A stretch of 64,000 nucleotides of DNA, taken from Clostridiales bacterium (GTDB taxonomy: Bacteria > Bacillota > Clostridia > Christensenellales > Borkfalkiaceae). Positions 3 through 49,128 of this stretch are shown here, one piece after another (within the stretch, counting starts at the first letter, position 1; every line of letters begins with the position of its first letter). The stretch spans positions 38,612 to 102,611 of the forward strand of contig SVHY01000002.1 of the NCBI GenBank assembly GCA_015055545.1. Reading direction: 5' to 3'. Below the pieces are notes generated by a model. It was not told where the DNA came from and searched no databases. It saw only the letters and a program-made list of their open reading frames with translations. The position numbers and the translations under genes are program-made.

Positions 3-215
3 ATCAACAGGCTTTGGACGGTGAAAGAGGCGGCGTTTAAACTGCAAAACGGCAAAGCGTTTTTACCTAACGCAATAGAAACGGACGGCGTTTTGAAATA
101 CAGTACAGCGTTCAAAACCGACGGCGGGGAATATTTTCTCACCGTCGTAGGTAGCGCCGTAGAAACAACGAAAATAATCGCCGACGGCGATATTAGAATA
201 AAAAAAGGAGAATAG
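3..215 (+). CDS. C-terminal end of a truncated hypothetical protein
   Basis: The frame is open from the first bases of the window to a TAG stop, so this is the last 70 or so residues of a gene that begins upstream. A GTG at 21 could be read as a start, but no ribosome binding site precedes it and the frame stays open before it. The visible part is mainly short polar strands with a lysine-rich end. I recognise no family. It ends 3 bases before the next ATG, so the two genes are probably cotranscribed. Confidence 0.5.
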   Translation: MNRLWTVKEAAFKLQNGKAFLPNAIETDGVLKYSTAFKTDGGEYFLTVVGSAVETTKIIADGDIRIKKGE

Positions 216-8438: not shown

Positions 8439-8963
8439 TTATAACACGCGGCACAGTCCGCAACAAAGCACGACGGAAAGCAGGTAGGAAAACACGGCGA
8501 TACATAACGCAAGCGTCAGCTTTTTTCGCTTTAAACCCGCGAAATATACCGCGCCGATATAGAAAATCGTTTCCGAACTCCCGTACGCTACGCAAGCGCA
8601 CCGCGCTGCGTAACTGTCCACGCCGTAGCGCGCGAAAATTTCGGATAGGGTGGCGATAGCACCGCTCCCTGAAAAGGGTTTGACAAGCAAAAGCGGCGTG
8701 ATTTCGTTGGGTATGCCCGTAAAGGAAAACAGGGGTGAAAGCCACCGCGAGAGCGCGTTTTCCAAGCCGCTTACTTCAAAAAGCTTGGTCATCATCGTTA
8801 CCGTCGCGATATACGGGAATAGGGATACGATAAGCGGAATTGCACCCTTTGCGCCCTGCGTAAAACTGTCGTATACCTTCACTTTCTTACAAGCAGCAAA
8901 GATGAAACTCGCCAAAAAGATAGCGGGTATGATTAAGGCGAAAATGCGCGTCATCTCGTACAT
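8439..8963 (-). CDS. spmB: Spore maturation protein B
   Basis: This is a 174-residue membrane protein of the nucleoside-recognition (Gate) family, with the conserved stretches VSLFPYIATVTMM, LVKPFSGSGA and AYGSSETIFYIGAVYF that mark SpmB. In Bacillus and clostridia SpmA and SpmB are needed for spore core dehydration. It overlaps the end of spmA by 13 bases and has the usual length (about 175). The pair is the best evidence that the organism forms, or descends from formers of, endospores. Confidence 0.88.
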   Translation of the reverse strand: MYEMTRIFALIIPAIFLASFIFAACKKVKVYDSFTQGAKGAIPLIVSLFPYIATVTMMTKLFEVSGLENALSRWLSPLFSFTGIPNEITPLLLVKPFSGSGAIATLSEIFARYGVDSYAARCACVAYGSSETIFYIGAVYFAGLKRKKLTLALCIAVFSYLLSVVLCCGLCRVL

Positions 8964-23506: not shown

Positions 23507-23535
23507 TTGACAATATTTATAAAAAGGGGTATAAT
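23507..23535 (+). promoter_or_regulatory. Consensus promoter of the cysteine desulfurase gene, leaderless arrangement
   Basis: TTGACA (23507-23512) and TATAAT (23530-23535) with a 17-base spacer form a perfect sigma-A consensus. The box ends 7 bases before ATG 23543, and no ribosome binding site fits in that gap. Confidence 0.85.
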
Positions 23536-23542
23536 CATACCT

Positions 23543-24688
23543 ATGAGCGACGTAATTTATTTAGACCACGCGGCAACCACGCCGTTGGATAAAAGAGTGT
23601 TTGAAAAAATGCGCCCGTATTTTTGCGAGTGCTACGGTAACGCCGATTCTCCACACGCTTTGGGCAGAAAAGCGCAAGCGGCGGTGGATGCTGCACGCGA
23701 TTGTGTGGCAGAACTTATCGGAGCAAAGAGTAATGAAATTTATTTCACTTCGGGCGGTACGGAAAGCGATAATTGGGCGATTATAGGTGGCGCACGCGCC
23801 AAACGCGTAGAGGGTAGAACGCAAATTGTTGTATCCACAATCGAACATCACGCCGTATTATCCGCGGTAGAACGGCTGGAAAAAGAGGGCTTTGAAATTG
23901 TGTGGCTTCCCGTGGACGAGGGGGGCATGGTTGCGTTGCAATCTATTCAAGACGCCGTTTCTGATAAAACTGCTATCGTTTGTTTGATGGCAGTCAACAA
24001 CGAAACGGGCGTAAAACAGCCCGTTGAGCAAGCCGCGTCAATCGCCAAGGAGCGCGGCGCGCTGTTTTTCACCGACGCCGTGCAAGCCGCACCGTATATG
24101 CCCATCGACGTCAAGGCTTGGGGCGTGGATTTGTTGAGCTTTTCTTCGCATAAATTTTACGGACCGAAAGGTTGCGGCGTTTTGTATATCCGTAGTGGCG
24201 TTAAAATGGAAAAACTCGTCGGAGGTGGCGAACAGGAACGCGGTATGCGCGGCGGTACGACCAACGTCCCGTTCGTGGTCGGCTTGGCGGAAGCTTATCG
24301 CTTGATTAGAGCGGAAATGCAAGAAAATAACGCCAAATTACAATCGCTTGCGGAAACGTTCATGCAAGAGCTTGCTCCGCTTGACGGCATTATGCGCAAC
24401 GGTGATAAGGCTAACGCGCTCCCGTCTGTGTTGAATTTACGTTTTTCGGGTGTGGAGAACACGTCGCTTTTGTATAATATGGACTTGCAGGGCGTGGCGT
24501 TTGCCGCGGGCAGTGCTTGCGCTAGCGCGTCGGTAAAGCCTAGCCACGTATTGACGGCAATGGGCTTAAACGAAACACAAGCAAAAGAAAGCGTTCGGTT
24601 GAGTTTTGGTAAGGATAATACGTTGGAAGAGGTTACGCGCGTAGCGGCACTTTTAACCGATACGCTGCGCCGTTTACGAAAAAAATAA
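23543..24688 (+). CDS. Cysteine desulfurase, NifS/IscS family
   Basis: This 381-residue PLP enzyme takes sulfur from cysteine for iron-sulfur clusters and thiolation. YLDHAATTPLD opens the protein, HHAV (about 105) stacks on PLP, the Schiff-base lysine is in SSHKFYGPKG (about 200-209), and the active-site cysteine is in GSACAS (about 324-329). The start was set at ATG 23543 from the consensus promoter just upstream; the frame is open to 23501. No IscU or ThiI gene follows; the next gene is a ferredoxin with its own promoter, which needs such clusters. Confidence 0.93.
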   Translation: MSDVIYLDHAATTPLDKRVFEKMRPYFCECYGNADSPHALGRKAQAAVDAARDCVAELIGAKSNEIYFTSGGTESDNWAIIGGARAKRVEGRTQIVVSTIEHHAVLSAVERLEKEGFEIVWLPVDEGGMVALQSIQDAVSDKTAIVCLMAVNNETGVKQPVEQAASIAKERGALFFTDAVQAAPYMPIDVKAWGVDLLSFSSHKFYGPKGCGVLYIRSGVKMEKLVGGGEQERGMRGGTTNVPFVVGLAEAYRLIRAEMQENNAKLQSLAETFMQELAPLDGIMRNGDKANALPSVLNLRFSGVENTSLLYNMDLQGVAFAAGSACASASVKPSHVLTAMGLNETQAKESVRLSFGKDNTLEEVTRVAALLTDTLRRLRKK

Positions 24689-38498: not shown

Positions 38499-39374
38499 AT
38501 GAAAGGGATTATATTGGCTGGGGGAAAAGGCACGAGATTGTATCCGATGACGAAAGCCGTTTCCAAACAGTTGTTGCCAATTTACGACAAACCGCTTATT
38601 TATTATCCGCTTTCCGTTTTATTGTTGGCGGGTATTAAAGAAATTCTAGTGATTTCTTCACCCGAAGCGATTGGTTCGTACGAAGAGCTTTTGGGCAATG
38701 GGAATCAAATCGGGGTGTCGATTGAATACTGCGTGCAAGAAACGCCGCGCGGGCTTGCCGATGCGTTTATTCTCGGTGAGAAATTTATCGGCGACGATAA
38801 CGTATGCTTGATTTTGGGCGATAACGTATTTTACGGAAAGGATTTGACCCGTATTTTAAATAGAGCAAAATCGCGTACAACGGGTGCTACGGTGTTTGGC
38901 TATCCCGTGAAAGACCCGACTTCCTTTGGCGTAGTGGAATTTGACAAAGACAATAAAGTGGTTTCCATTGAAGAAAAACCGCAAAATCCTAAATCCAATT
39001 ACGCTGTGCCCGGGTTATATTTTTACGACAACAAGGTTGTGGAGATTGCGAAAAACGTAAAGCCGTCGGCGCGTGGGGAAATTGAAATTACGTCCGTGAA
39101 TAACGTGTATTTAGAACAAGGCGAATTGCATGTAGAGCTTTTAGGTAGGGGCATGGCTTGGTTGGATACGGGTACGCCTATGGGCATGTATAAAGCGAGC
39201 GGGTTCGTACAGACCGTGCAGGAAATGCAAGGATTTTACATATCGTGTATAGAAGAAATTGCTTGGCGTAGAGATTTTATCACGACCGAGCAACTGAAAA
39301 ATATCGGCGAAGGTTTGAAACAAACGGAATACGGACAGTATTTATTAGCCTTAGCTAACGGAGAATTGAAATGA
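38499..39374 (+). CDS. rmlA: Glucose-1-phosphate thymidylyltransferase
   Basis: This 291-residue enzyme makes dTDP-glucose from dTTP and glucose-1-phosphate. [20 protein letters not shown] (residues 4-23) is the nucleotide-binding signature, [10 protein letters not shown] holds the catalytic Asp and [20 protein letters not shown] the sugar site. Length is as usual (about 290). AAGGAG precedes the ATG and the rmlB gene overlaps its stop. Confidence 0.95.
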
Positions 39375-47110: not shown

Positions 47111-47140
47111 TTGACAAAGATATGTTATCGGTGGTATAAT
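47111..47140 (+). promoter_or_regulatory. Promoter of the second half of the glycan locus
   Basis: TTGACA (47111-47116) and TATAAT (47135-47140, with TGG extension) are 18 bases apart. The leader of about 70 bases contains alternating GCGCGC segments (47168-47197) able to form a GC-rich stem, then AAAGGA before the ATG. Confidence 0.8.
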
Positions 47141-47217
47141 ACTGATAATGGGTCATAATAGTTAGTGTCGCGCGCGCGTAATGCGTATGCGCGTGGGTAG
47201 CATAAAGAAAGGACGAT

Positions 47218-49128
47218 ATGAAAGAACAAACGAAAAAACAAAAGAAATTTTCAAAGCATTTAAGCCGCGGTGCGTTGGTGCTTGCCGATTTATTGTCCAT
47301 TTCGGCAGCGATCGTGTTTGCGTATTTGAGTACGCAATGGTATAAAATTATCAGCGTTTCCGCGCTCATTTGGGCGATAGGGAATATTATTTGTGCGATA
47401 GCCGTATACGCCTCGTTAGGGCTGTATTCCATCGTGCTCAAAGCGGTGGGCGTAATGGAAATTATGAAAATCCTGTTCGCCGCGTTCATCATCGGACTTT
47501 CCAACGTCGTGTTCACGCTGTTCGTGCGTGATTTCGTTGGGATTGGTACGGGGCTTGTGTATACGCTTGCTTTAGCGTCGCTCACTGCGCTCACAAGATA
47601 TATACAGCGTTTGCGCGTGGGGATACGGCATTATATCAGCGAACAACCTGCTAATAAAATCCGCGTTATGATCATCGGCGGCGGGAGCGCGGGTAGTTCG
47701 CTTATCCAAGAAATGCAAACGAGCGAAAAGATTGCCTACAACCCCGTTTGTATTCTCGACGACGACCCTGCTAAACTTAGAAGCTATATCAGCGACGTAA
47801 AAATCGTTGGTACGACCAAGGACGTAAAGAAATACGCCGAAGAATACGGCGTGCAAGAAATTTTTATCACCATTCCGTCGGCGGATAAAAAACGGCTTAG
47901 CGTAATCGTGAAACGCTGCCAAGAAAGCAACTGCCCGATTAAAATTTTGCCCGGTATGTATCAGCTTGCCTCGGGGCAGGTGACGGTGGAAAAACTCCGA
48001 CCTGTGGAAGTGCAGGACTTGTTGGGCAGAGAACAGGTTTCCGTCAATTTGGACGAAATTATGGGCTATATTGAAAACAAGACGGTGCTCGTTACAGGCG
48101 GCGGCGGTTCGATAGGGAGCGAACTTTGTCGGCAAATCGCTACGCATAATCCTAAAACGCTTATCATTTTGGACGTGTACGAAAACGGCGCGTACGACAT
48201 TGAGCAGGAACTCAAACGCAAATACCGCGATTTACAGTTATTAACGCTGATTGCAAGCGTGCGGGAAGAAGACAAAATGCGCGACGTGTTTAAAAAATAC
48301 CGACCGCAAATCGTATTCCACGCGGCGGCGCACAAGCACGTGCCGTTGATGGAAACGAGCCCCAACGAAGCGGTAAAGAACAACGTATTCGGTACGCTCA
48401 ACGTAGCCAAGTGCGCGGACGAGTTCGCGGCGGAAACGTTCGTGCAGATTTCTACGGACAAGGCAGTAAACCCCACGAATATCATGGGTGCGACCAAGCG
48501 TATATGCGAAATGATCGTGCAAACGATAGGTAGACACAGTAAAAAGACCAAGTTCGTGGCGGTGCGTTTTGGGAACGTGCTCGGTTCGAACGGTTCGGTT
48601 ATTCCGCTGTTTAGAAAGCAAATTGCAGAGGGTGGGCCTGTAACCGTTACGCATAAGGATATTATCCGATACTTTATGACCATTCCCGAAGCGGTGTCGC
48701 TCGTGTTGCAGGCGGGCGCGTATGCAAAGGGCGGACAGATTTTCGTGCTGGATATGGGTGAGCCCGTACGTATTTACGATTTGGCGTGCAACCTTATCAA
48801 GCTTTCGGGGTTAGAACCGAACGTGGATATTGATATCGTTTGTACGGGCTTGCGCCCTGGGGAAAAGCTGTACGAAGAACGGCTGATGGAAGAAGAAGGG
48901 TTGCAAAAAACACCCAACGGGCTTATCAATATCGCAAAGCCGATTGCTATCGACGAAGTGATGCTCAAAACGACGTTGGATAAGTTGTATAAAGAGGCGT
49001 ACGATGAATCGGAGGATATGAAACGGTTAGTGCAACAGCTCGTACCGACGTATACCATCGATAAACGCGATTCGATTGCGGAAGCGTTGGCGGATAAGAA
49101 GAATAAGCAAAAACAAAAAAGAGCGTAA
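47218..49128 (+). CDS. Membrane UDP-GlcNAc 4,6-dehydratase (PglF/CapD type)
   Basis: This is a 636-residue protein. Four N-terminal helices (about 15-135) are followed by a nucleotide-binding domain (RVMIIGGGSAGSSLIQEM, about 150) and a C-terminal SDR domain with VLVTGGGGSIGSELCRQI (about 290). STDKAVNPTNIMGATKRICE has Met for the catalytic Tyr, as in PglF and WbpM. It makes UDP-4-keto-6-deoxy-GlcNAc, the substrate for the aminotransferase that follows. Length fits the family (about 600-650). Confidence 0.9.
   Translation: MKEQTKKQKKFSKHLSRGALVLADLLSISAAIVFAYLSTQWYKIISVSALIWAIGNIICAIAVYASLGLYSIVLKAVGVMEIMKILFAAFIIGLSNVVFTLFVRDFVGIGTGLVYTLALASLTALTRYIQRLRVGIRHYISEQPANKIRVMIIGGGSAGSSLIQEMQTSEKIAYNPVCILDDDPAKLRSYISDVKIVGTTKDVKKYAEEYGVQEIFITIPSADKKRLSVIVKRCQESNCPIKILPGMYQLASGQVTVEKLRPVEVQDLLGREQVSVNLDEIMGYIENKTVLVTGGGGSIGSELCRQIATHNPKTLIILDVYENGAYDIEQELKRKYRDLQLLTLIASVREEDKMRDVFKKYRPQIVFHAAAHKHVPLMETSPNEAVKNNVFGTLNVAKCADEFAAETFVQISTDKAVNPTNIMGATKRICEMIVQTIGRHSKKTKFVAVRFGNVLGSNGSVIPLFRKQIAEGGPVTVTHKDIIRYFMTIPEAVSLVLQAGAYAKGGQIFVLDMGEPVRIYDLACNLIKLSGLEPNVDIDIVCTGLRPGEKLYEERLMEEEGLQKTPNGLINIAKPIAIDEVMLKTTLDKLYKEAYDESEDMKRLVQQLVPTYTIDKRDSIAEALADKKNKQKQKRA

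Follow-up and report, generated by a model that had tools for sequence, protein, structure and literature searches.

The window analysed here is a stretch of 64,000 nucleotides (positions 38,612 to 102,611 of contig SVHY01000002.1; G000:C43:38612-102611 in genome numbering) from the metagenome-assembled genome (MAG) of an uncultured gut clostridium (GCA_015055545.1; 1.95 Mb in 59 contigs, estimated to be 83% complete). It contains five genes, encoding a cysteine desulfurase, an EamA-type transporter, a PAP2 phosphatase, a spore maturation protein A-like factor (spmA) and a glycosyltransferase-like protein, each of which carries a -10 box 6 or 7 bases upstream of its ATG (Table 1). A sequence-only reading of the window had proposed that all five are transcribed without a leader; the boxes and start codons lie where it had placed them, and none of the five genes is preceded by a Shine-Dalgarno (SD) site, in line with its remark that they have no ribosome binding site. 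Neither Rfam families nor tRNAs were found in the window. The records closest to the cysteine desulfurase come from the unclassified Clostridiales/Clostridia MAGs SIG420, SIG410, RGIG5268 and SIG419, and the nearest named genus judged by this protein is Candidatus Borkfalkia (52% identity), which belongs to the Christensenellales according to NCBI.

Table 1 Promoter elements and predicted genes of the five loci, in window coordinates
Feature	Start	End	Strand	Remarks
Cysteine desulfurase -35 box TTGACA	23507	23512	+	TTGACA-17-TATAAT; retained in many congeneric species
Cysteine desulfurase -10 box TATAAT	23530	23535	+	7 bases before ATG 23543
Cysteine desulfurase (NifS/IscS-like), 381 aa, predicted leaderless	23543	24688	+	NCBIfam NifS family E 3e-131, below curated cut-off
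EamA -35 element TTTACT	4942	4947	+	17-base spacer, 4/6 match to TTGACA
EamA -10 box TATAAT	4965	4970	+	7 bases before ATG 4978
EamA-type transporter, 297 aa, predicted leaderless	4978	5871	+	TIGR00950 E 2e-13, below curated cut-off
PAP2 -10 box TATACT, extended TGTGGTATACT	21032	21037	-	6 bases before ATG 21025
PAP2 phosphatase, 171 aa, predicted leaderless	20510	21025	-	Pfam PAP2 E 2e-15
spmA SigE-type -35 element GGCATTTCC	9581	9589	-	genus consensus GGCATTTTC, TTT nearly invariant
spmA SigE-type -10 element GCATATAATA	9559	9568	-	contains the TATAAT of the sequence-only reading (6 bases before ATG); distance of the CATA element the same in all 30 congeneric species
spmA (spore maturation protein A-like, Gate domain), 200 aa, predicted leaderless	8951	9553	-	Pfam Gate PF07670 E 5e-8
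Glycosyltransferase box TATGAT, extended TGGTATGAT	14530	14535	+	6 bases before ATG 14542
Glycosyltransferase-like protein, 422 aa	14542	15810	+	no NCBIfam match; leaderless status unsupported by relatives

The promoters of the cysteine desulfurase, EamA, PAP2 and glycosyltransferase genes share the sigma-A layout of a TTGACA-like -35 element, a spacer of about 17 bases and a TATAAT-like -10 box. A perfect -35 element is present only at the cysteine desulfurase gene, where the TTGACA-17-TATAAT promoter of the sequence-only reading is confirmed, and PAP2 depends on its extended -10. Conservation was assessed in the upstream regions of homologues from 20-30 congeneric species per gene. An extended -10 (TRTGnTATACT) lies 6-9 bases, and mostly exactly 6, from the ATG of PAP2 in all 30 congeneric species, none of which has an SD site, and the proteins share 44-52% identity. 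Among 21 EamA homologues 13 have a -10 box at 6-9 bases (12 of them at 6-7) without an SD site, and two have the box at 23 bases together with an SD site. The homologues of the cysteine desulfurase are more varied, with the box at 6-8 bases and no SD site in eight of 30 species, at 9-10 bases in five further species (one with an SD-like site), and in many others the same promoter followed by a leader of 20-43 bases, usually with an SD site. Since predicted leaderless and SD-led versions coexist among species, the cysteine desulfurase gene appears to have switched its mode of initiation within the genus, and these species may thus provide a natural series for studying how and why genes make this switch. 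Its translation start is not expected to lie much later, as the conserved N-terminal sequence IYLDHAATTP starts as early as residue 5. For PAP2, EamA, the cysteine desulfurase and, as described below, spmA, a leaderless transcript is the best interpretation, so that conservation bears out the sequence-only reading for four of its five genes; the glycosyltransferase is plausibly leaderless, without support from its relatives.

The same architecture recurs across the genome, of which the counts cover 1.80 of 1.95 Mb (46% G+C) with 1,419 called genes. Counted before candidate gene-start ATGs, as the sequence-only reading had suggested, exact TATAAT occurs 23 times at 6 bases and 14 times at 7, as compared with 0-4 times at most other spacings between 3 and 17 bases. 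A weight matrix for sigma-A -10 boxes finds 30 genes at 6 bases and 16 at 7, with about three at neighbouring spacings. By neither count do GTG and TTG starts show a peak at 6-7 bases. When TATAAT-to-ATG distances are taken over all DNA only a weak peak is seen (46 and 41 versus 25), which becomes sharp on restriction to gene starts, and a broad hump of TATAAT at 25-35 bases from gene starts corresponds to ordinary leadered promoters. An SD site is found at none of 53 candidate leaderless starts, and a strict SD-led ATG at 592 of the 1,419 called genes. After subtraction of the background about 40 genes remain, approximately 3% of those called, PAP2, spmA, EamA and the cysteine desulfurase among them, and the transcripts of these genes very probably start at the A of the ATG or no more than about 3 bases from it, with neither leader nor SD site. 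The figure of at least five leaderless genes in the sequence-only reading is an underestimate because about 40 genes share the architecture.

Every one of the 30 genes with a 6-base spacing has a pyrimidine at -1, as against 74% of SD-led ATGs (p = 3e-4), which fits transcription starting on the A of the ATG. This bears on the unlikely alternative that the transcripts are not strictly leaderless and start 1-5 bases before the ATG, with a leader too short to hold an SD site. This would suit the third of the strong sigma-A cases in which box and ATG are 7 rather than 6 bases apart, as well as those congeneric cysteine desulfurases with the box at 8-10 bases; however, the peak is sharpest at 6 bases, where +1 would fall on the A, the 30 genes with this spacing have the pyrimidine without exception, and most PAP2 homologues have exactly 6 bases. 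That the start codons have been misplaced, with true starts downstream behind an ordinary leader, is most improbable. The starts are sequence predictions and the EamA homologues vary in N-terminal length, but in PAP2, spmA and the cysteine desulfurase the conserved N-termini start with the assigned methionines or only a few residues from them, and an alternative SD-led ATG lies nearby in only one of the 53 candidate genes. It is also very doubtful that the boxes arose by chance or mark minor promoters, with the genes expressed from longer transcripts that start further upstream and hold a cryptic ribosome binding site. AT-rich intergenic DNA has many copies of TATAAT (2,063), which would leave room for coincidence, but the sharpness of the spacing peak, its restriction to ATG and the lack of SD sites at all 53 starts speak against it, as does a box position that stays fixed between genomes despite protein identities of only 44-74%.

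Several points nevertheless weigh against leaderless transcription of these genes. The gene starts were taken from a simple home-made coding-score caller, and the 5' ends are predicted from the position of the promoter; additional start sites may lie upstream. Where the box lies 7-9 bases away, a leader of 1-3 bases may remain. In C. phytofermentans, where the share of apparently leaderless starts is 4%, most of these have a second upstream start and a ribosome binding site (PMC5171806), which would also accord with expression from longer upstream transcripts. The box of the glycosyltransferase gene is not conserved in its few homologues, and both the SigE motif scan and the enrichment of AraC-family regulators, described below, were found post hoc.

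The pattern TTGACA-16..18-TATAAT-6/7-ATG was counted in related genomes against a spacing control, in which the same promoter pattern lies 11/12 bases from the ATG in the same genomes; a control with the pattern reversed proved too lenient. In 151 genomes of the family the pattern occurs 706 times versus 301 for the control, with 111 genomes above their control and 20 below (p about 2e-16). An excess is also seen in the sister families f32 (70 versus 9), f16 (40 versus 7), f14 (30 versus 11) and f24 (31 versus 10), and in 398 kb read from an f32 genome 14 of 303 genes have the box at 6-7 bases. Families f3, f17, f19, f21 and f23 together give 58 matches versus 61 for the control and hence no excess, and at loci of other Clostridia, which served as a negative control, none of 230 genes has a box at 6-7 bases. 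In the rest of the phylum the raw count, a figure without spacing control, is about one per genome and never above five. The predicted leaderless trait is a mark of this family and several sister families; other families of the order appear to lack it, and in the remainder of the phylum it seems rare. That the signal is weak or absent in sister families and other Clostridia likewise argues against chance matches.

The spmA gene overlaps a gene for a second Gate protein (spmB-like, 8439-8963), and its promoter differs from those of the other four genes. In Bacillus subtilis spmA, spoIIIAA and yabP are mother-cell genes, and SigE promoters of the B. subtilis type consist of a -35 element ATATT/ATTTT, about 14 bases and a -10 element CATA(T/C)A. 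The spmA promoter reads CATTTTC-N14-GCATATA, and across the genus the upstream consensus is GGCATTTTC, 14 bases and GCATATAnTA/T, adjoining the ATG in 30 of 30 species. The TATAAT noted in the sequence-only reading is present at its position, but its sigma-A identity does not hold, as the box lies within this CATA-type sporulation promoter. The promoter is most likely of the SigE type and not sigma-A, since the CATA -10 is found in all 30 congeneric species and a sigma-A -10 scoring above 6 at 5-8 bases in only three. A sigE gene is present on contig C14 (NF006158, 349.6 bits, cut-off 339).

Two further genes of this class show the same geometry, spoIIIAA (GCATATAGTA-4-ATG; Spore_III_AA 1.6e-44; G000 C8:37847, minus strand) and yabP (GCATAAAATA-4-ATG; YabP 4e-9; G000 C22:18631, plus strand). 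Both have GCATA-NA-NTA -10 elements 4 bases before the ATG, and neither has an in-frame start further upstream, which is a further argument against misplaced start codons. The arrangement GCATACATTA-4-ATG is seen at a YabP-like gene, identified by eye, of L322, a genome from another family. A general rule that SigE-class genes are leaderless was rejected, as spoIVA of the same genome is SD-led, and a CATA match before a polysaccharide deacetylase was discarded because it lies inside a longer reading frame. The CATA motif alone is found five times at leaderless spacing, with about 0.7 expected; this excess is small, and the proposal of leaderless SigE genes therefore rests mainly on the conservation of spmA. 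Families of the order divide into two groups by their spmA promoter, one with a SigE-like element 4-5 bases from the ATG and no SD site, and one with the element about 20-34 bases from the ATG and mostly an SD site; a few regions match neither well. GCATA-type elements also adjoin the ATG at five other positions in the genome (G000 C15:14761, C12:8599, C45:15573, C39:2710 and C22:15159), where the genes encode small or membrane proteins, including one LysM, one M20-type peptidase and one YihY-like protein, and are candidate sporulation genes.

It is proposed that RNA polymerase would start on or next to the A of the AUG, and that ribosomes would initiate on the resulting mRNAs without SD pairing, by the route known for 5'-terminal AUGs. 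Most of the leaderless genes would be served by sigma-A, through a TTGACA-like element, a 17-base spacer, often an extended TGn, and TATAAT or TATACT 6-7 bases before the ATG, and spmA, spoIIIAA and yabP by a SigE-type sporulation promoter of the same geometry. The 5' ends, sigma-factor use and translation mode we infer from promoter geometry, spacing statistics, conservation and the lack of SD sites. The arrangement would be kept by selection, with genes shifting between the leaderless and the SD-led state within the genus. More broadly, and with distinctly less confidence than is held for the 40 or so genes themselves, it seems fairly probable that leaderless mRNAs form a stable and selected part of gene expression in one subclade of Christensenellales-like Clostridia and extend to part of the SigE mother-cell regulon (spmA, spoIIIAA, yabP), whose proteins would be made SD-independently, and that single genes gain or lose leader and SD site between congeneric species.

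A leaderless start is an uncommon but known mode of initiation in bacteria and is already known in Firmicutes. Leaderless genes have been predicted in 56 of 209 Firmicutes genomes, at a mean of 4.2% and mainly in Lactobacillales and Mycoplasma (Zheng et al. 2011, PMC3160421). In Streptococcus pneumoniae D39 9% of operons are leaderless, and a leaderless pbp2A reporter is translated well without a ribosome binding site (PMC6212727). Maps of transcription start sites (TSS) reveal 15 potentially leaderless genes in C. difficile (PMC7438776) and 2-3% leaderless transcripts in solventogenic clostridia (PMC9045289). The remark in the sequence-only reading that leaderless mRNAs are thought of as rare in Firmicutes is therefore roughly right, in that numbers are low in TSS-mapped Clostridia, but it fits poorly with the 56 genomes and the pneumococcal operons. 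The genes described here resemble those with TA-like signals (PMC3160421), in which the -10 box, a TATAAT that in some cases has a TG extension, replaces the SD site and puts +1 on an ATG start codon; that set too is enriched in transcription regulators, which are of the AraC type here. Unlike its Firmicutes members, mostly from Lactobacillales and Mycoplasma, the present genes belong to a clostridial lineage near the Christensenellales. The pneumococcal case has been proven by 5'-end mapping and a reporter in an organism that does not sporulate (PMC6212727), whereas the present one is known from sequence and also involves SigE-type promoters. The low numbers of apparently leaderless starts in the clostridial TSS maps (PMC7438776, PMC9045289, PMC5171806) represent the same class, but the genes here lack any SD site and have a promoter position that is conserved across species. 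The promoters of spmA, spoIIIAA and yabP share their -35 type, their spacing of about 14 bases and the CATA -10 with SigE promoters of B. subtilis, in a genome that has a sigE gene, and differ in that the -10 element adjoins the ATG and leaves no leader. A literature search, of incomplete coverage, found no paper tying leaderless transcription to the Christensenellales, and a Paenibacillus transcriptome study as the only one to mention both 'leaderless' and spoIIIA. What is new here is the conservation at the level of a clade of uncultured Clostridia and the extension to the SigE regulon. Clostridia are regarded as SD-dependent, and few leaderless genes have emerged from TSS mapping of cultured members. 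The present lineage, which is clostridial and known largely from metagenomes, would retain dedicated leaderless genes over long spans of evolution, among them one whose SigE-type sporulation promoter is joined directly to the start codon. Such starts may be misplaced by gene callers that rely on an SD site or a leader.

A sixth TTGACA-TATAAT-7-ATG match in the window (47111-47150) was rejected as a leaderless gene as its ATG opens a frame of only five codons (MGHNS). This frame sits in the leader of an SD-led gene at 47218 (window 47111-47217) and may represent a leaderless upstream peptide or a chance ATG. AraC-family regulators make up nine of 45 predicted leaderless genes and 32 of 1,419 genes overall (Fisher p 2e-7), a post hoc enrichment that paralogy may inflate; the predicted leaderless genes of AraC type are found on contigs C2, C4, C15, C24, C25, C38 and C46 of this genome. 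At G000 C19:25720-25804 two perfect TTGACA-17-TATAAT-6-ATG promoters stand back to back as a predicted leaderless pair that drives divergent genes, with their -35 boxes 9 bp apart, and a comparable divergent pair is located at G288 C44:5580-5668.
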